Of a stretch of 13,375 bases of DNA, positions 1,554 to 10,373 are shown piece by piece. Numbering within the stretch: position 1 is the stretch's first letter; each line of letters begins with the position of its first letter. The stretch is from Candidatus Auribacterota bacterium (GTDB lineage: Bacteria; Auribacterota; JAFGBW01): positions 1-13,375 of the forward strand of contig JAFGBW010000133.1 of assembly GCA_016932965.1 (NCBI GenBank), given 5' to 3'. The notes beneath the pieces were generated by a model. The model did not search any database and had not been told where the DNA came from. It saw only the letters and a program-made list of their open reading frames with translations. The position numbers were made by a program, and so were the translations under genes.

Positions 1554-1594
1554 TCACCTAAAATCCTGCCGGAATCCGGCAGGATTTTAGGTGA
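1554..1594. terminator. Bidirectional terminator, perfect 20-bp inverted repeat
   Basis: Arms 1554-1573 and 1575-1594 are perfect reverse complements around a single base. The GC core CCTGCCGG/CCGGCAGG is flanked by AAAAT on one side and ATTTT on the other, so each strand shows a GC stem running into T residues. It lies between two convergent genes, 4 bases after the plus-strand stop. The minus-strand ybeY stop codon (1587-1589) is inside the second arm. Confidence 0.85.
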
Positions 1595-2120
1595 AAGCGG
1601 AAAACAGATCCATATAAAACCGCTCCCTTTGGCGCATGACTTTCATTAAGGATTTAGAGGTATCATCGTAGCCGAAACAATGCAGTATTCCATGAACAAG
1701 ATATAATCTGATTTCCCTCTCCAGCGTGGAATGAAACAGCTTGAAATTTTGTTGTGCCTGGTCAACGCAGACAAATACTTCTCCTAATATATAGTTCATG
1801 ATGGTTTTTCCCGGTTCGATATAACTATAAGACAACACATCAGTCGGAACAGTCAGGCCCAGGGTTTGACTATGAAGTGAAATCATTTTTTTTTCGTCAA
1901 GGAGGCTGATGGTGAATTCATATTCTTTTAAAGGAAACAATGTCTGATAGCGCAGGATATATAACTCCCTTTCATTCAGCACGATAAAAGAAGCTATGGA
2001 TTTTAATTGATTGAGATTCAGCTTGAAAGAAGTCTGCCGGTTAAAGATCCGGATATGCACGGAAGATAAATTCATCATCTGGTCACGATGTTGCATGGAT
2101 GGGATTATTTTTGTAACCAT
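1587..2120 (-). CDS. ybeY: Endoribonuclease YbeY (rRNA maturation factor)
   Basis: A 177-residue protein of the UPF0054/YbeY family, which is a metal-dependent RNase acting in 16S rRNA 3' maturation and ribosome quality control. The family signature HGxLHxxGYD is present near the C-terminus (VHGILHCFGYDDTS), preceded by the usual strand with acidic residues (GEVFVCVDQA) and followed by a helix containing MRQRE. The third metal-ligand position, usually His at +10 from the first His, is Asp here. The N-terminus is weakly conserved and somewhat long. The ATG at 2120 has only a poor AAAGGG-like ribosome site about 13 bases upstream, so the later Mets at residues 9, 15 or 16 are possible starts. 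The customary phoH neighbour is absent. An integron cassette sits directly upstream. Confidence 0.88.
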   Translation of the reverse strand: MVTKIIPSMQHRDQMMNLSSVHIRIFNRQTSFKLNLNQLKSIASFIVLNERELYILRYQTLFPLKEYEFTISLLDEKKMISLHSQTLGLTVPTDVLSYSYIEPGKTIMNYILGEVFVCVDQAQQNFKLFHSTLEREIRLYLVHGILHCFGYDDTSKSLMKVMRQRERFYMDLFSAFT

Positions 2121-2150
2121 AAGGTGGCTGGCCCTTTATTATGCTCATTA

Positions 2151-2215
2151 AACTAACGATCAAGCTAAGGGGCAAAACACGCAGTGTTTTGCCCGCTTGA
2201 GTGCGTTGTTATATG
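2151..2215 (-). other. Integron attC recombination site of the cassette
   Basis: Read on the minus strand from 2215 to 2151. R'' is ATATAAC (2214-2208) and L'' is CTCAAG (2201-2196). An 11-bp stem GGGCAAAACAC/GTGTTTTGCCC (2194-2184 and 2180-2170) closes on a 3-base loop. L' is CTTAG (2169-2165) and R' is GTTAGTT (2157-2151). L'' pairs with L' except for one extra C (2199), the same extrahelical-base position as in the classic aadA site (TTCAAG against CTTAA). A second bulged C is at 2195. The AAC and GTT cores are intact; R' departs from GTTRRRY at one position. The crossover point would be between 2157 and 2156. At about 65 bases it is among the short attC sites. A plain terminator would not explain the outer boxes. 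Confidence 0.83.
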
Positions 2216-2697
2216 TTTTTATTATCCGTCAACGGAGATTTCTGATGCAACACCATTTTCAAAATAAACCGTGAATGTATGATCTTGATCAGATTTACAC
2301 TCAAAACTAATATCCCAACCGTTATTTATATCACCATTCTCTGGAGTTGATAAACCTATTAAAGCAAATTCATCAAAAAAGTTGTCAGGAACAGGTTTTT
2401 GAAGAAAAGATTCAAATTGTTCTGATATTTTTAGTTTTAATTTTTTAATTGTTTCATCGAGATTTGAAAGTATATTTTTTGTAAAGTTTTCGTGTGGTTC
2501 AAAAAGGCCATTCTCATGTGCGTTTACTGAAACGCTAATATTAGAGTAATTGCCATAGGTAAGTTCTTCGACTTCCCAATATCCTCCAGCATAGAGCATT
2601 TTTCCAAAGAAAGGGTGATCAATATCTGGAACACTGTTTGATTTAAATAATTTTTTAGAGAAATTTTTCATTTAATTCCTTTTTATTTTTCATATAA
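2157..2697 (-). mobile_element. Lone integron gene cassette (541 bp)
   Basis: The layout is that of a mobile gene cassette: a boundary G|TTATATG at 2698-2691, a 26-base leader with AAGGAA ribosome site, one ORF, then attC. The decisive observation is that the boundary bases GTTATATG are the exact complement of the R'' region CATATAAC (2215-2208) of the attC 480 bases away. Excision and circularisation would rebuild a matched R''/R' pair, as cassette recombination requires. The interior looks more AT-rich than the flanking efflux genes. No integrase gene, attI or second clear attC lies in the window. Flanking genes in the same orientation are chromosomal (an efflux operon and ybeY), so this is either a cassette inserted at a secondary site or the residue of a decayed array. 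Confidence 0.8.
2222..2671 (-). CDS. Cassette-borne protein of unknown function
   Basis: A 149-residue soluble, acidic protein without signal peptide, membrane segment or cysteine-rich motif; it has one Cys. The start at 2671 is supported by AAGGAA about 5 bases upstream. An N-terminal half reads FFGKMLYAGGYWEVEELTYG, the middle is a helical stretch (NFTKNILSNLDETIKKLKLK), and the end is a strand-rich block WDISFECKSDQDHTFTVYFE closing on an Asp-Gly. This alternation resembles small single-domain families common among immunity proteins and cassette ORFs (DUF2004- or DUF2262-like in feel), but I cannot place it in one. The stop is 7 bases before the attC R'' box, the tight spacing normal for cassettes. 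With its own ribosome site but no obvious promoter, it is probably read from the upstream efflux operon. Confidence 0.82.
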   Translation of the reverse strand: MKNFSKKLFKSNSVPDIDHPFFGKMLYAGGYWEVEELTYGNYSNISVSVNAHENGLFEPHENFTKNILSNLDETIKKLKLKISEQFESFLQKPVPDNFFDEFALIGLSTPENGDINNGWDISFECKSDQDHTFTVYFENGVASEISVDG

Positions 2698-2744
2698 CAG
2701 GTTATTCAGCATGATCCGTTACCGGCTGTACGGTTAATATAAAT

Positions 2745-3161
2745 CTATTGATTAGATTTTCCAGCCGGGTTTTCAGCTTTTTTAACGGAAATAAACGGAC
2801 CTTTCCGTTGTTGACATAACGGGCATTTCTTTCCTATTTCATCCATCATCTTTTGCATTCCTTCGATATCTATCTTGATTTCCACTTCTTTTTTCAATTC
2901 CAGATTTTCATCATATTTTAGAATTTTATTGCCCATAATCACAAATAGTCCGCCATCTGGCGCGGATAATACAGTTTTATCCAGTATCAGCTTTTTGATC
3001 ATTTGGCATTTGGCACATTTTGCATGATTAGGCGTGATTCCGCTGGCTTTCATCCGCATCCCTTTTGCTGCAGGACTCATCGGATCGTTTCCTTCTGCAG
3101 TCAGGTTTGTTAAAACCAATGACAATAAAAACGGTAAGACCATTTTCAAGATTTTATTCAT
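2745..3161 (-). CDS. Small exported protein with two CxxC motifs
   Basis: A 138-residue product with a signal peptide (residues 1 to about 22, MNKILKMVLPFLLSLVLT then AEG). The mature part has Cys49-AK-Cys52 and Cys113-PL-Cys116, spaced like two halves of a metal-binding ribbon or redox pairs. Between them is a DGGLFVIMGNKILKYDENLEL segment that looks like a beta-hairpin repeat unit. The N-terminal mature stretch is Met- and His-bearing (MSPAAKGMRMKASGITPNHAKC). A strong GGAGG ribosome site precedes the ATG. It lies 49 bases after the RND pump stop in the same orientation and is probably the third gene of that operon. A periplasmic metal- or thiol-handling accessory to the pump is an inference; the family is not recognised. 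Confidence 0.78.
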   Translation of the reverse strand: MNKILKMVLPFLLSLVLTNLTAEGNDPMSPAAKGMRMKASGITPNHAKCAKCQMIKKLILDKTVLSAPDGGLFVIMGNKILKYDENLELKKEVEIKIDIEGMQKMMDEIGKKCPLCQQRKGPFISVKKAENPAGKSNQ

Positions 3162-3210: not shown

Positions 3211-6200
3211 TCATGAATCCTGTTTCTTTGCCCTCAATGAATATAAAACAGGGACAATGATCAACGTGACAGTTGTAGCAAAAAGAAGCCCCCAGGACAA
3301 GGCAAGCACCATGGGAACCAGAAAGGGTTCTGTGCCGCTCCATCCATATGCGGAGGGTAAAAGTCCGCAAACAGTCGTTAGAGTGGTCAGAATGACCGGC
3401 CTCAATCGGGTGCAGGCTCCGTCTCTTATCAGATCCAATGTCATGACATGGTTATTTTCATATAAATGGTTTAAATGGCTTACCATCACAATCGAATCAT
3501 TCACAACCACGCCAATCATGCCGAGAGTGCCGATCAGTCCCATGAAACTCAGGGGCAGATGATGAAAGTAAAATGCGGTCATCACGCCAATCATGCCAAA
3601 GGGGATGGCCAGCATGATCAATATCGGCTGGCGAAAGGAATCAAAAATCAAAACCAGGATGAAATAGATGGCAAAAATGGCGCAGATAAATGCGATGAGA
3701 AAGTTTTTCATGCTCTCCATGGTTTCTTTTTCCTCACCGCCGAATATGATCTGAAGCCCTGGCGTAGAGAGTATTTTCGACTCAAAGTTCTTTCTGATTT
3801 TTTGGTTGGCCTCAGCCGATGTGATGATTTGATCATGCACTTTAGCGGTGATGGTGATGCATTTTTTACCGTTGTAATGCTCAATGGTCTGTTTGGATAT
3901 CCCTTCTTCAAACCGGCCGATATTTTTAACCCTGATCAGCCTGTTCTGGTTGTTGGGGATTTGCAGATCATTTAAAATATTCAGGGAATTTCTCTGCTCA
4001 TCGAGAAGCTTGATGCGGAAATCAATTTCCTCTCCCTCCCGTCTTAAACTCGTGGCGATCATTCCGTCATAGGCCATTAAAGCGGTATTGGCCACATCAG
4101 AGGCGCTGGTGCCAAGTTTTGACATGGCATCGTAATCCAGCATGATGCGCAGCTCTTTTTTGCCCTCCAGATTAGAAGTGTTAATGGAATGCACCCCGTT
4201 CGTGTTATGTAAAAAGGAAAGGATGTCTGAAGCCTGTTTTTCACAAAGTTCAATATCATCTGAAACCAGCCGGATCGTAATGGGTTCTCCGACAGGAGGG
4301 CCGTCTTTTAATTCCCTTACATCCAGTTTTACAAAACCAGTTATACTGGAGACCTCATTTTTAAAATCCTCGATTATTTTTTCGCTGCGCACATTCCTTT
4401 TTGATGAAGGATGGAGAAAGACGCTGATGAGCGCCCAATTCTCATGCAGGGAAGGATCGGCTGCAGCTTCATCAGTCCGGTGATCCCCGATGATTGTTTT
4501 ATAGCCTATCATCAGATTTCTAGGTATCTTGGCAACGTGTTTTTCCACAGAGGAGACTTTCTCGCTCATTTCATCCAGAGAAACTCCTGTTTTGGCTTCC
4601 ATGACAATGTAAAACAGGTCAAAGTCTTCTGTAGGAAAAAGATCAAACTTGAGTACTTTTGAATAAAACCCGAATGATCCTGCAAGATAAAGGACCAATA
4701 TAATGATACTCAATGCCCGCTTTTTTAAAAATACGTAAAGGATTGAGCCGTATATTTTCTTTAATTTTTCCATCCAGGGAGAGGGTTTTTTAACGCTGAT
4801 CTTTTTTGAACTCAGATGAGCCGGCAGACAGGTGAAACTCTCAAGAAGACTGAGTCCCAAAGTCAGCATTACAACAGCGGGAATGGACTGGATGAATTTA
4901 CCGAGGATACCGGTCATGAAAAACATGGGGACAAAGCAAATCATGGTTGTGATGATGGTTCCCATGACGGGTTTAAACATTTCCAGGGTTCCCATGACAG
5001 CGGCTTTGATGATTTCAACGCCCTGTTCCTGATAGCGGTGGATGTTTTCACCAACGACAATCGCATCGTCAACAATCATGCCGAGCACCATGATGATGGT
5101 GATGAGGGTGACCTGATTGGTGGTGATGCTGAAAACCGGAAAGAATATGAAGGAGCCCAAGATGCAGAACGGTATTCCTGTCGCAATCCAGAAAGCAGAA
5201 CGAAAATCCAGAAAAATAAAAAGACAGAGGCACACCAGAAAGAATCCTATCAGCGCGTTTTTATTCACGATGTTTAAAAGGCTTTTTGTGTAATAACTGT
5301 AATCAACTACCTTGGATATGCTGATGCCCTGTTGTTGATAGGCATTCTGATATTTTTGAATGATGCGGTCTATTTTTTCACTCAAACGGATGATATCAGC
5401 TGTTCCCATCCTTTTTACAAGTAGATTGATGCTGTTGATCCCGTTTGTCCTGCAGTAACGGTCGCGTTTTTTGAAGTTATCCCTGATGGCCGCCACGTCT
5501 GAAACCCTTACGCATTTTCCGGAAAAATTGCTCCTGACAATCACATCCCCCACTTCCAGGTTGTTCTGAAACTCGGAAAAGGTGACGATCTTTTTTTCGT
5601 CTGTGGTAGATTCCAGGGTTCCGGCGGACATCCTGATATTCCGGGAGCGGATCGCATCAAAAATTTCCATGAAGGAAATCTGCTGTTCATCCATCTTGGC
5701 CGCATCGCAGAGAATCTGTGTTTCACGCTTACGGTAGTTGATTTTTTCAACAATGCCCACATCCGGCAGAGCCTTGAATTCGGACTCCATGTCCTTGGCA
5801 ATTTTTCTCAAAAATAATTCCTCGGCAGAGTCTCCGGATATGGCGACTTCAAGAATCGGGAAATCGGTGGTTTTAAGCTCCTGCACAACGGGTTTGTCTT
5901 CGATCTCTTTCGGTAGATTGCGCACGCGGTCTACAGCGGAACGGATGTCGTTTTTGATGCGGGGGGTATCATCAGCGTCAGGATCAATACGAATAACGAT
6001 ATAGGACATTCCCTCAATGGAGAAAGAGCTCATTTCTTCAATGCCGTCAACAGCTTCCAGCTCATCTTCAATGGGATCCGTCACCTTGATTTCAACATCT
6101 TCAGGCGAAGCACCTGGATAATAGGTGAAAATCAGCACGATATTGAAATCCACATTGGGCATGTCCTGCCTGGGGCTGTTGACCATGCAGAGCATGCCTG

Positions 6201-6270
6201 TAAACATGACGAAAAAATAAACCAGGAAGCTTAATTTTTTTCTTTCAACAAAATAACGGGGAATGTTCAT
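3211..6270 (-). CDS. RND-family inner-membrane efflux permease (AcrB/HAE1-like)
   Basis: A 1019-residue proton-driven pump with the RND plan: TM1 at about 12-32, a large periplasmic loop 33-330, TM2-6 at about 335-480, TM7 near 520-540, a second loop 545-850, and TM8-12 at about 855-1010. TM4 carries the proton-relay pair Asp401-Asp402 in GMIVDDAIVVGENIHRY. The region matching the AcrB Lys940 motif in TM10 reads GVVVNDSIVM, so Asn replaces the Lys and an Asp follows, as seen in non-canonical HAE1-like clades. Periplasmic porter signatures include YYPGASPEDVE and the following DPIE. The ATG overlaps the TGA of the outer membrane gene by 4 bases (ATGA), so the two are coupled. No adaptor gene accompanies them. 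The substrate cannot be predicted; the lipophilic-compound class is likelier than metals because heavy-metal RND signatures are absent. Confidence 0.94.
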   Translation of the reverse strand: MNIPRYFVERKKLSFLVYFFVMFTGMLCMVNSPRQDMPNVDFNIVLIFTYYPGASPEDVEIKVTDPIEDELEAVDGIEEMSSFSIEGMSYIVIRIDPDADDTPRIKNDIRSAVDRVRNLPKEIEDKPVVQELKTTDFPILEVAISGDSAEELFLRKIAKDMESEFKALPDVGIVEKINYRKRETQILCDAAKMDEQQISFMEIFDAIRSRNIRMSAGTLESTTDEKKIVTFSEFQNNLEVGDVIVRSNFSGKCVRVSDVAAIRDNFKKRDRYCRTNGINSINLLVKRMGTADIIRLSEKIDRIIQKYQNAYQQQGISISKVVDYSYYTKSLLNIVNKNALIGFFLVCLCLFIFLDFRSAFWIATGIPFCILGSFIFFPVFSITTNQVTLITIIMVLGMIVDDAIVVGENIHRYQEQGVEIIKAAVMGTLEMFKPVMGTIITTMICFVPMFFMTGILGKFIQSIPAVVMLTLGLSLLESFTCLPAHLSSKKISVKKPSPWMEKLKKIYGSILYVFLKKRALSIIILVLYLAGSFGFYSKVLKFDLFPTEDFDLFYIVMEAKTGVSLDEMSEKVSSVEKHVAKIPRNLMIGYKTIIGDHRTDEAAADPSLHENWALISVFLHPSSKRNVRSEKIIEDFKNEVSSITGFVKLDVRELKDGPPVGEPITIRLVSDDIELCEKQASDILSFLHNTNGVHSINTSNLEGKKELRIMLDYDAMSKLGTSASDVANTALMAYDGMIATSLRREGEEIDFRIKLLDEQRNSLNILNDLQIPNNQNRLIRVKNIGRFEEGISKQTIEHYNGKKCITITAKVHDQIITSAEANQKIRKNFESKILSTPGLQIIFGGEEKETMESMKNFLIAFICAIFAIYFILVLIFDSFRQPILIMLAIPFGMIGVMTAFYFHHLPLSFMGLIGTLGMIGVVVNDSIVMVSHLNHLYENNHVMTLDLIRDGACTRLRPVILTTLTTVCGLLPSAYGWSGTEPFLVPMVLALSWGLLFATTVTLIIVPVLYSLRAKKQDS

Positions 6271-7706
6271 GTGTTTTTGGTTTCATCATGTATGCGGTCC
6301 AGGAGCCTGTCTTGAATCGCTTCATATTCCGCGTAAAGCTGATGCCATAAAAAGGTGTTGCCGGCATAGGAGAGTTTTGCGTCAAGTTCAGAGTCCCTGC
6401 TTTGAATGACAAAGGTAAAATCACCGCGTCCCTGATTGTAATTTTTAAGTTCTTCCTCAGTCCTTCTCATGGTGGAGCGTATGGATTCCCTGTTGAGCTC
6501 AAGTATGTTATCCATGTATTTAAGACGGATAATGATTTCGGAAGCAGCGGCTGAAAGCTCAAGGATGACTTTGTTTTTTTCTTCTTCAAACACCATAATT
6601 TTTTTTTCAATACCGGATAAAAGGTGTTTGAGTCGTGTATTGGGTATCGCAAAATTCATCTTCAATCCCAAAAGCGCATGTATTTCATTGAAGTCAATAG
6701 AATCTGAAAAAGACGCCTCCGTCTGATTGACTCCCGATTCGGCCATCAGGGATAAATCCGTTCTCATTTCATTTTGATAGGCTTTTTTCATGGCCTCGAG
6801 TTGAATCAAATGAGTATCAAGGGGTTTGATGAGCCTAGAATGAGAACAGAGATATTCTTTTGCCTTTTCAGGTTCTTCAATGTATCTGGTTTTGTAGAAA
6901 TCAAATTCAGGTGAATAATCCACAGCCTTTTTTTCGTTAGCGATATTCAGAATATAAGACAATAACGCTTTCCATTGGGTTTCTGTCTGTAAAAGATACT
7001 CCTTTGTCTTTATCAGCTGTCCTTCGGCTCTCAAGACATCTACTTCATCCACGAGATTGGAGCTTCTTTTTTTCTGTATGTCTGAAAGCAGTTCCTGGCT
7101 TAAATGAAGCCGTTCAGAAAGGATGCTTTTACAGGCGTCCGTATAGGCCCATTCCAGATATTTGAGCGTGCATTGTTTGATAAAATTTTCCTGCTGCTCT
7201 TCGGCAAGGACCCGGGTCATATCGATGTCATACTTTTTGAGGTCAAAGGCAAGCCTGCTTAACATCCCTTTTTTATTTCGGATCAAAGGATGGGTGTATC
7301 GGACAATCAAGCCATTTGAATAGGCGTCCTTTAAAAAAAAATCCTCGTTTCCAGAATAATCCGTTCTGGAGGAAAAAAAATTGGCAGACAACTCCCCGCC
7401 GGTTTTCCAGAATTTTTTTTCTATTCCTATGCTTGCCTGGCTTTCATTCTTTTCATCATAGTATAAAAATACCTTGTTGGCTGTATCATGGCTTAAGCGG
7501 GCATCCGCAAACAGGTTCCAATCCTTATCGCCTTTGAGGCTTTCTCTTTCATCCTGCAGGGAGAGCACCTCCCATTGGGCTTTTGTCAGGGCCGGATGCT
7601 TTCGAAGCATGCTGTAAAAATCTTTTAGACTGAGTCCTGCAGCATGAGATGAGAAGGCGATTGATGTGAACATCAAAAGGACTAATGGTTTATTTGTTTT
7701 AATCAT
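6267..7706 (-). CDS. TolC-family outer membrane efflux protein
   Basis: A 479-residue protein with a signal peptide (MIKTNKPLVLLMFTSIAFSS, cleavage near SHA/AG). It has the TolC plan of two long helical repeats separated by strand segments: the first helical hairpin starts at SLKDFYSMLRKHPALTKAQWEV, the strand LFADARLSHD follows, helices of about residues 145-260 include LRAEGQLIKTKEYLLQTETQW, and a second half repeats the pattern to the end. In the family it forms the trimeric outer-membrane channel of tripartite pumps. GGGAG lies about 7 bases upstream of the ATG. It is the first gene of the minus-strand operon, preceding the RND permease, whereas the usual order puts the outer membrane gene last. 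Confidence 0.88.
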   Translation of the reverse strand: MIKTNKPLVLLMFTSIAFSSHAAGLSLKDFYSMLRKHPALTKAQWEVLSLQDERESLKGDKDWNLFADARLSHDTANKVFLYYDEKNESQASIGIEKKFWKTGGELSANFFSSRTDYSGNEDFFLKDAYSNGLIVRYTHPLIRNKKGMLSRLAFDLKKYDIDMTRVLAEEQQENFIKQCTLKYLEWAYTDACKSILSERLHLSQELLSDIQKKRSSNLVDEVDVLRAEGQLIKTKEYLLQTETQWKALLSYILNIANEKKAVDYSPEFDFYKTRYIEEPEKAKEYLCSHSRLIKPLDTHLIQLEAMKKAYQNEMRTDLSLMAESGVNQTEASFSDSIDFNEIHALLGLKMNFAIPNTRLKHLLSGIEKKIMVFEEEKNKVILELSAAASEIIIRLKYMDNILELNRESIRSTMRRTEEELKNYNQGRGDFTFVIQSRDSELDAKLSYAGNTFLWHQLYAEYEAIQDRLLDRIHDETKNT

Positions 7707-7793
7707 ATCAATCTCCCGCAGTTTGCTGTGGCAGGATCTCCGTTCTTAAAGAAGGCCTTTGTTCAGGATGAGGTTTTATTTGATACAAACAAA

Positions 7794-7802
7794 GGGGGGG
7801 GG
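7794..7802 (+). repeat. Homopolymeric G tract (9 G)
   Basis: Nine consecutive G on the plus strand, 87 bases upstream of the TolC-like start and 234 bases upstream of the LPP20-like start. Tracts of this length can slip during replication. It would be C9 in the leader or promoter of the efflux operon. Confidence 0.9.
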
Positions 7803-7862
7803 AGTCTTTTCACAACCGGATTTTTTAGAGTTTGTACCGTAACTGATGAGGAAAAGTAAAGA

Positions 7863-7880
7863 ATTCATATTATGAATATG
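7863..7880. promoter_or_regulatory. Palindromic operator candidate
   Basis: ATTCATA-T-TATGAAT (7863-7877) is a perfect 7+7 inverted repeat, overlapped by a second one, CATATT-ATG-AATATG (7866-7880). Nested palindromes in a divergent intergenic region suit a dimeric repressor, but AT-rich sequence gives such matches by chance and no local regulator is linked to it. Confidence 0.3.
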
Positions 7881-7957
7881 CCGATGGAATGGGAATTTCT
7901 ATGTTTTAATTATATTTGGAAAATTTTTTTTTCTATGATAGTGAATAAGAAAGGTGG

Positions 7958-7986
7958 TTTAACGTCTGAATAGACAGGAATACTAT
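7958..7986 (+). promoter_or_regulatory. Sigma-70-like promoter for the LPP20-like gene
   Basis: TTTAAC (7958-7963), a 17-base spacer and TACTAT (7981-7986) make a reasonable -35/-10 pair, giving a start near 7993 and a leader of about 45 bases before the ATG at 8037. Confidence 0.4.
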
Positions 7987-8036
7987 TATCATGATTAACC
8001 GACATGGATGTCAATCATAATAAGGGAGAGCAAAGA

Positions 8037-9185
8037 ATGAAAAAAAGTATCATCCTATTGATGGTGTGGGGCTTTTTCTGGATTCCCGTCAGTCCGGCTG
8101 CTGATTATATCCAGTCTTTTGGTCAGGATTCCTATGTCAACTGGACCAAGGGGGAAATTTGTGCAACTGGGTCAGGCATCATCAAAGGCAAGCCCACTAA
8201 TAAAAATAAAATGAATGCCTACAGGGCTGCCACGCTTGATGCCATGAGAAAGCTCACGGAAGTGATCAATGGAGTGTACGTGGATTCAGACACGAAAATT
8301 GAAAAATTCACCGTGAAGGAAGACACCATCAGGACAAAAGTTTCAGGGATTGTTAAAAATTTTACCGAAAAGGAAATCCGTTATCTGGATAATGGGATAT
8401 GTCAGGTGAATGTTTCCATTCCCATCAACGGCGACGGAAGCATAGCCGAGATTTTTCTTGGGGGATTGGAAATGCCCAAAATCGTGGATAACACCGTTTC
8501 CGTTGAAACCGTATCAGTCAAAGAGCCAACGATGCTGGCGAAAAAACCGGAAACAGCGCCTGCTCTTCCGGGTACGCAAGATGTGCAGGAAGAAAGTCCT
8601 GTTCAGGAAACCGGGATCATTGAACAGGCAGCGCAGGAAGTGAATGCTGAAACAGAAACTATTCAGGAAGAAAACATTCAGCAGGACACGAAAAAAACAA
8701 AAGAACCGGTTTTATTAGCTATGAACAAGGCTGAGACGCCGCCGTCATCGGAAACAGCTGCACCTGGCACGACCGATGCAGTTTCTTCTGAAAACGCTGC
8801 CGCTTCTCAGGAAGGCGCTTTGAAAAATCCTAGTACGCCGGTATCGGGGCTGGTGGTGAATGCTTCCGGATATTCGGTGCGGCCTGCCCTGGTACCAAAG
8901 ATTGTTTCGGACACTGGAGAAGAAATATACGGTTTTAACAAGGCGGACCGAAATTACAGAAAATTAAACGGCATGGCTTCCTACACGACGACACTTGATG
9001 ATGCGGAATTGGATAAAAGAGTGACTGAAAATCCCTATATTGTGCCGGCGGTCAAAGTGGATGAAACCAAACCCGCTACGGTTGTGATTTCCGGGGAAGA
9101 CGCAAAAAGATTCAAGGAATTAAAAGGAAATGAGCGCATTTTAAGCCGTTGCCGTGTCATTATTGTTTCTGAAAAAATCGCTTGA
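8037..9185 (+). CDS. Exported LPP20/FlgT-N-like protein with a C-terminal conserved domain
   Basis: The start at 8037 is chosen over 8004 because AGGGAG at 8023-8028 lies 8 bases upstream and the product then opens with a signal peptide (MKKSIILLMVWGFFWIPVS, cleavage near PAA/DY). There is no lipobox Cys. The 382-residue product has three parts. Residues about 35-142 look like the LPP20/FlgT N-terminal fold: an invariant-looking AYRAATLDAMRKLTEVINGV helix, then VSGIVKNF and a beta end. Residues about 150-270 are a Pro/Ala/Glu/Gln/Thr-rich linker. Residues about 280-382 are a compact domain (VPKIVSDTGEEIYGF ... RCRVIIVSEK). LPP20/FlgT-like proteins are often linked to flagellar basal structures or the outer membrane, and motor genes lie nearby, so a role at the motor or envelope is plausible but unproven. 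Confidence 0.78.
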   Translation: MKKSIILLMVWGFFWIPVSPAADYIQSFGQDSYVNWTKGEICATGSGIIKGKPTNKNKMNAYRAATLDAMRKLTEVINGVYVDSDTKIEKFTVKEDTIRTKVSGIVKNFTEKEIRYLDNGICQVNVSIPINGDGSIAEIFLGGLEMPKIVDNTVSVETVSVKEPTMLAKKPETAPALPGTQDVQEESPVQETGIIEQAAQEVNAETETIQEENIQQDTKKTKEPVLLAMNKAETPPSSETAAPGTTDAVSSENAAASQEGALKNPSTPVSGLVVNASGYSVRPALVPKIVSDTGEEIYGFNKADRNYRKLNGMASYTTTLDDAELDKRVTENPYIVPAVKVDETKPATVVISGEDAKRFKELKGNERILSRCRVIIVSEKIA

Positions 9186-9256: not shown

Positions 9257-10373
9257 ATGATGGACATATTGGAAGTCGGTGAAAAGCTGGCTGATTTCAA
9301 GTTGAGGTTTTCGGACCTCGGGAGGTTTCTTTGACATCGCCCGGCTTGGAAAAGAAAATTCGGAACTAGAAAATCAGCTTGGGGCACCGGGATTCTGGGA
9401 TGACAAGGATAAGGCCCAGCGGATTGTTTCGAGGATTTCAGAAATCAAGGGGATACTCACTCCCTATTTTCAATTGGAAAAAGACCTTCGGGATCATCTG
9501 GAATTGTATGAATTCATCCGGGTTGGGGAACACAGTGAATCTGACAAGGACTATTTCCTCAATGAGCTGAAGAAGATAGAGAAATCGCTTCAGGAAACGG
9601 AAATCCGGGCAAAATTGAGCGGCAAATTCGATGCCTGTAATGCCATTGTCAATGTGAATGCAGGGGCGGGAGGAACGGAATCCTGTGATTGGGCGGCCAT
9701 GCTTATCCGGATGTATCAGCGTTGGGCAGAAGATCACGGTTATAAATTTGAAATGGCGGATGTACTGGCCGGCGAGGAAGCAGGGATAAAGAACAGCACT
9801 TTTCTGGTGAATGGAAAATACGCGTATGGATATCTTAAATCTGAAAAAGGCGTTCATCGGCTGGTGAGGATTTCTCCTTTTGACGCGAATAAACGCAGGC
9901 ATACTTCTTTTGCCTCTATTGACGTCATGGCAGAGCTGACAACGGATATGGATGTGGAGATCAAGGATGAGGATATAAAAATCGACACTTTCCGTTCCAG
10001 CGGTGCGGGAGGACAGCATGTCAATACCACGGACTCGGCTGTCCGGATTACCCATCTTCCGACAGGCATCGTGGTGGCCTGTCAGGCTGAACGGTCGCAG
10101 CATAAAAACAGGGCTACTGCGATGTCCATCTTGAAAGCTAAATTATTTGAAAAAATGGAGGAAGACAAAAGGCGGGAACTGCAAAAAGAATATGGTGAAA
10201 AACAGGAGATCGCATGGGGGAGCCAGATCCGTTCGTATGTTTTCGCCCCTTATCAAATGGTCAAGGATCACCGCACAAAAGTCGAAACCGGCAATGTGCA
10301 GGCCGTGATGAACGGAGACATAGATCTTTTTATCGAAGCGTTTCTGAAATTAGATAAACAAAAGGATTTTTAG
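9257..10373 (+). CDS. prfB: Peptide chain release factor 2, with +1 programmed frameshift
   Basis: Translation starts at the ATG at 9257, with AGGAGG at 9244-9249. The zero frame runs 25 codons to an in-frame TGA at 9332-9334; skipping T9332 resumes in the frame that continues to 10373, giving 371 residues (E. coli RF2 has 365). RF2 recognises UAA and UGA stops and triggers peptide release on the ribosome. The stop-recognition tripeptide SPF is at residues 206-208 (RISPFDANKRRHTSF) and the catalytic GGQ at 251-253 (SSGAGGQHVNTTDSAVR). The N-terminal domain has the usual APGFWDDKDKAQ motif. The first part is short enough to be missed by automatic gene calling, which would report a truncated start near 9474. 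It follows the LPP20-like gene after 71 bases. Confidence 0.96.
9320..9335 (+). promoter_or_regulatory. RF2 autoregulatory recoding site
   Basis: GGGAGG (9320-9325) acts as an internal Shine-Dalgarno, followed by TTT, the slippery CTT (9329-9331), TGA (9332-9334) and C9335. This matches the E. coli AGGGGG-TAT-CTT-TGA-C layout base for base in spacing. Low RF2 slows termination at the UGA and lets CTT slip +1, so synthesis adjusts to RF2 level. Confidence 0.95.

Follow-up and report, generated by a model that had tools for sequence, protein, structure and literature searches.

A single integron gene cassette between an efflux cluster and ybeY in an uncultured bacterial phylum, probably inserted at an attG-like site

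An integron gene cassette usually consists of one ORF with a short leader and little or no promoter, oriented with its attC site, and the target form in cassette recombination is G|TT. Loot et al. (Nat Microbiol 2024) have reportedly described integron cassettes inserted outside integrons, at attG sites. Such insertion is treated as established in those passages of PMC12901181 and PMC12444791 that cite it. By default IntegronFinder 2 reports a CALIN (a cluster of attC sites lacking an integron-integrase) from at least two attC, and its description states that a hit with one attC may be a true positive (PMC9024848); in another survey singleton attC were excluded (PMC9668308). Single cassettes outside integrons are a known kind of element, though rarely catalogued; since surveys skip single attC sites, most natural insertions of this kind have gone uncounted.

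Here we describe such a cassette in a window of 13.4 kb, by which we mean the whole stretch of DNA analysed (Table 1). On one side of it is an efflux cluster, whose last gene ends 47 bp from the cassette, and on the other ybeY, which starts 36 bp past the attC recombination point, so that the gap between the two host genes would measure 83 bp with the cassette taken out; efflux genes, cassette and ybeY are all co-directional. Nowhere else in the window is the AT content as high as in the cassette (31.6% GC, against 42.4% for the window), and the third-position GC content (GC3) of its ORF is the lowest in the window, the other measured genes having 0.38-0.53.

Table 1. Features of the locus and attC matches in its genome.
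Feature	Position	Strand	Basis or remark
Whole integron gene cassette	2157..2697	minus	541 bp, opening with TTATATG and closing on the G that precedes |TTAGTTT; delimited by the match of start and R'' and by attC R'
Upstream recombination boundary G|TTATATG	2691..2698	minus	Exact complement of R'' CATATAAC
Presumed downstream half of target site, TTAGTTT	2150..2156	minus	Deduced from joining both flanks
Cassette ORF, 149 aa	2222..2671	minus	ORF list; AAGGA shortly before ATG; GC3 0.20
attC	2150..2215	minus	Covariance model R1, 32.6 bits, E 1.4e-6; DNA fold z -5.1
YbeY endoribonuclease, downstream host gene	1587..2120	minus	PF02130, E 1.9e-24
Upstream host gene, 138-aa protein, last of efflux cluster	2745..3161	minus	ORF list, Pfam
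RND transporter, efflux cluster	3211-6270	minus	ORF list, Pfam
TolC-like ORF, efflux cluster	6267-7706	minus	ORF list, Pfam
attC matches in the genome	C37:7988 (37.7 bits), window (32.6 bits); weak: C37:6638, C140:1658, C37:5937		R1

The boundaries of the cassette are defined by its own sequence. An earlier note on this DNA had pointed to the octamer G|TTATATG at 2698-2691 as the exact complement of the R'' box at 2215-2208, with one ORF and an attC-like hairpin in between, and we located all of these: on the minus strand GTTATATG and CATATAAC are complementary at 8/8 bases, ORF and attC occupy 2671-2222 and 2215-2150, and the span of 2157-2697 that the note gave for the cassette is exact. This 8-mer has only these two copies in the window, counting both strands, against 0.18 expected, and just 1/200 of the shuffled windows held at least two. 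At the upstream boundary the G is host sequence, part of an attG-like site, and the cassette opens with TTATATG, so that the minus strand reads ...GCTGAATAACCTG|TTATATGAAAAATAAAAAGGAATTAAATG, the 149-aa ORF, and TAATAAAAACATATAACAACGCACTCAAGCGGGCAAAACACTGCGTGTTTTGCCCCTTAGCTTGATCG|TTAGTTTAATGAGC... in this order. After the G|TTATATG start there follow a Shine-Dalgarno-like GGA, the ORF, whose leader is 26 bp long and whose direction matches that of attC, and the attC itself; promoter-like matches in the cassette region were not more frequent than in shuffles. It is on the attC architecture, the complementarity of start and R'' and the one ORF with a short leader that we assign the stretch to the integron gene cassettes.

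The attC identity was examined with a covariance model, R1, which we trained on 27 attC sites of arrays that are either known or clear-cut, all of them outside this phylum: plasmid resistance cassettes, a Klebsiella plasmid array, an Arenimonas array and Thermoanaerobaculia sites. Its structure, made of the R box, an L box whose R'' side has one unpaired base, and the start of the terminal stem, has covariation well above that of shuffled and slid controls. A model of this sort had been named in the earlier note as a possible refutation, and the outcome was in favour of attC: R1 matched the site over its full length, the E value being 1.4e-6 when the window was searched and 3.2e-4 for the whole genome. 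Sites of known arrays score mostly 28-59 bits under R1, many of them being training sequences, so that this range is a scale and not a test; the window site lies within the range of true sites. R'' is CATATAAC (2215-2208) and R' is GTTAGTTT (2157-2150), whose last 7 bases come from the host flank; L'' and L' have one unpaired base, like known attC, one internal L-box pair is mismatched, and the variable terminal structure is a short stem. Past GTTAG, R' differs from GTTRRRY, which is to be expected if it is host-derived and is equally expected from decay. The hairpin folds as single-stranded DNA in the window's plus strand, which is the attC bottom strand. An exact-word search with the R''-L'' sequence led to the Arenimonas attC array, beside an intI-like recombinase, and to the Thermoanaerobaculia attC sites. 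An Rfam search of the cassette region gave no match.

The ORF adds a line of evidence of its own. No relative of it was found among 384 genomes, genome contigs, viral contigs and phages, and tblastn against plasmids returned only two. The better one is WP_181486560.1, with 28% identity in 138 columns and E 4e-9. It is encoded on pRHBSTW-00464_5 (NZ_CP056487.1), a wastewater plasmid from Klebsiella, in an array of about eight attC, where it is flanked on both sides by attC among small co-directional genes that attC sites separate; the closest relative that we could detect for the ORF is therefore itself a cassette. Eight attC were extracted from this array, several with cassette starts matching their own R'', and seven score 28-40 bits under R1, most of these having been training sequences. 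The attC that precedes WP_181486560.1 ends in CCCCTTACCTTGAACGTTAG where the window attC has CCCCTTAGCTTGATCGTTAG, a similar L'-R' half. The best Pfam match of the cassette ORF is DUF6985 (PF22481) at a sub-threshold E of 0.011; since the plasmid homolog has no match to DUF6985, we do not rely on this label. An NCBIfam search of the ORF returned no match, and its predicted structure, made without an alignment, had a mean pLDDT of 41.5 and was not used.

A genome-wide search for intI, which the earlier note had asked for beforehand, gave no match to the integron integrase model (TIGR02249) over the cut-off; two weaker recombinases match it with positions of about 175-235 skipped, as Xer-like recombinases would. 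Hence the locus is not a complete integron, there being no detectable intI in the genome, and it is not a CALIN, for which two attC within 4 kb are required where the window has one. At 92.6% completeness, the assembly (in 300 contigs, with contamination estimated at 2%) could lack one gene such as intI; a resident integron, however, should have left well-scoring attC sites in an array as well, and the genome search met no such array. The contig ends 2.15 kb past the window attC, with ybeY intervening after 36 bp.

Over the whole genome R1 gave only five matches at E<=10, with the window attC second, and a simple pattern search had also met all five or neighbours of them. The word "lone" in the earlier note accordingly holds for the locus and fails for the genome, in which there are three weak sites on contigs C37 and C140 and a second well-scoring cassette on C37. 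This second cassette (about 7175-8036) starts with G|TTAGATG, encodes a 262-aa methyltransferase and ends in an attC at 7988-8044, the start lying 813 bp before R'' and complementary at 8/8 bases; its attC directly precedes the start codon of another gene, the N-terminus of whose product resembles N-termini of other proteins of the contig. Two of the weak sites, C37 5937-6009 and C140 1658-1729, are nearly identical attC-like hairpins of about 15 bits each, sharing R'' AAGATAAC and the A-rich stretch that precedes it, and they may be attC that have diverged, or else a hairpin repeat of another kind; the one on C140 is near a transposase-like gene. The same two contigs encode many predicted secreted proteins, two of them adjoining attC sites, with a short motif such as CLAPR, CLSPK, LAPG or LSPRS just past the signal peptide, and this motif may be a lineage-specific sorting signal.

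Integrons themselves are present in the phylum. Taking one genome per species, intI over the cut-off was found in 13/44 genomes and attC at E<=1e-3 in 14/44, several genomes having both on one contig; the nearest relative, from the same order, has two intI and 22 attC at E<=1e-3. An exact complement of the R'' 8-mer lies at most 1200 bp upstream in 16/30 attC hits of the phylum, compared to 17/818 (2.1%) when R'' and upstream sequence were paired from different contigs. Four further attC with exact boundaries have no other R1 match within 4 kb (contigs G008:C118, G011:C22, G030:C26 and G030:C44, where G numbers denote genomes); in three cases the contig breaks off no more than 2 kb from the attC, and only the G008 cassette is securely alone. 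Apparently single cassettes with exact boundaries are thus seen in the genome studied here, G000 (window and C37), and in G008, G011 and G030, with G000 and G008 having no detectable intI.

Taking these data together, we consider it probable, at roughly 0.8, that the lone cassette was inserted as a circle by IntI at an attG-like G|TT, with intI acting in trans or since lost. The event that we infer would start with a promoterless cassette, composed of start, ribosome-binding site, ORF and its own attC, excised elsewhere as a circle. Through the bottom strand of its attC in the folded state, IntI would then recombine this circle with a G|TT trinucleotide in the 83 bp that separated the efflux operon from ybeY, with CCTG|TTAG as the exchange point. 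The integrase may have been supplied in trans, by a plasmid or a neighbouring integron, or by an integron that was lost or is missing from the assembly. Oriented with the operon, the cassette could be read by upstream transcription, which makes read-through expression plausible. The target is recognisable only as G|TT, a common sequence, and we call it attG-like in that the junction has this trinucleotide and is enclosed by host genes. The predicted empty site is CCTG|TTAGTTT, and a cassette-free allele would have ...AATAACCTG joined to TTAGTTTAATG.

For the gap in the window, the nearest relatives among the genomes compared belong to the same order and are too distant to be aligned there. Empty sites were sought at other single-attC loci. 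A comparison of G035 with G016 at a single-attC locus gave no homologous locus. In another pair about 1.1 kb of G026:C33, holding a single attC, is absent from G004:C34, the left edge of the absence being at a TT site and the right edge off the attC, with a further deletion in G004 nearby; the G004 locus may be a naturally empty site lacking one or two cassettes, but the case is ambiguous. At about 9326-9417 of G026:C33 there is a stretch with ACAAAACCCCACAAATTGCGAATTCGTATATTATAT, of which some ten repeats occur in genomes G004, G019 and G026 of the same genus, in places paired 120-150 bp apart and promoter-like in look.

That the stretch is a single cassette, as the earlier note had read it, is supported by the attC model and the cassette-borne homolog of its ORF; the choice between insertion and the remnant of an array is a matter of inference. 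An array, either a decayed integron or a CALIN, may once have stood between the efflux operon and ybeY, with one cassette left of it, and the occurrence of integrons and arrays in the phylum and the three attC-like sites, two of them weak, within 2.1 kb of C37 agree with such a history. However, upstream of G|TT there is no remnant of attC or intI, the next-best R1 match in the window scoring 8.5 bits, and the host gap, only 47 + 36 bp and operon-like, has no space for debris. We regard a decayed array as improbable, and less likely than insertion, because it needs the loss of all other cassettes and of the integrase with no debris left in 83 bp.

A cassette-bearing contig of another organism might also have been joined to this genome or binned with it, and both the fragmented assembly with its contamination estimate and the composition of the cassette, unlike that of its flanks, could be cited for this. 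Yet the edges fall exactly at recombination points and not at arbitrary joins, both flanks are co-directional, and another contig of the same bin has a second cassette with exact boundaries, which leaves an artefact very improbable. It is hardly credible that a resident gene has come to stand by a stable hairpin, a terminator or another palindrome, which resembles attC by chance, for although intergenic hairpins are common, this one has its attC model score, the exact match of start and R'' and a cassette-borne ORF homolog to set against that, has no T run after it and was not called a terminator.

The case is recognisable by three independent lines: the attC model, the identity of start and R'', and the cassette-borne homolog. 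The match of start and R'' suggests a cheap genome-wide filter for true single cassettes. What is new here is a natural example in an uncultured phylum, together with a hint of wider scatter there. One may go further and suppose that integrases routinely scatter single cassettes in chromosomes of this phylum, where host operons would be the expression platform in place of the attI-Pc integron; we offer this speculatively and think it on the whole doubtful.

Among the described systems, CALIN share with our locus an attC without a nearby integrase, and differ from it in being clusters, where the window has one attC only. The attG insertions are alike in that one cassette, complete with attC, occupies a G|TT in genomic DNA at a distance from intI and attI, whereas the case in the window comes from a naturally occurring genome, that of a member of an uncultured phylum, with no detectable intI and with a target deduced from the junction. 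The cassette of WP_181486560.1 has a homologous ORF, but it belongs to a long array, and the plasmid with this array is mobilizable.
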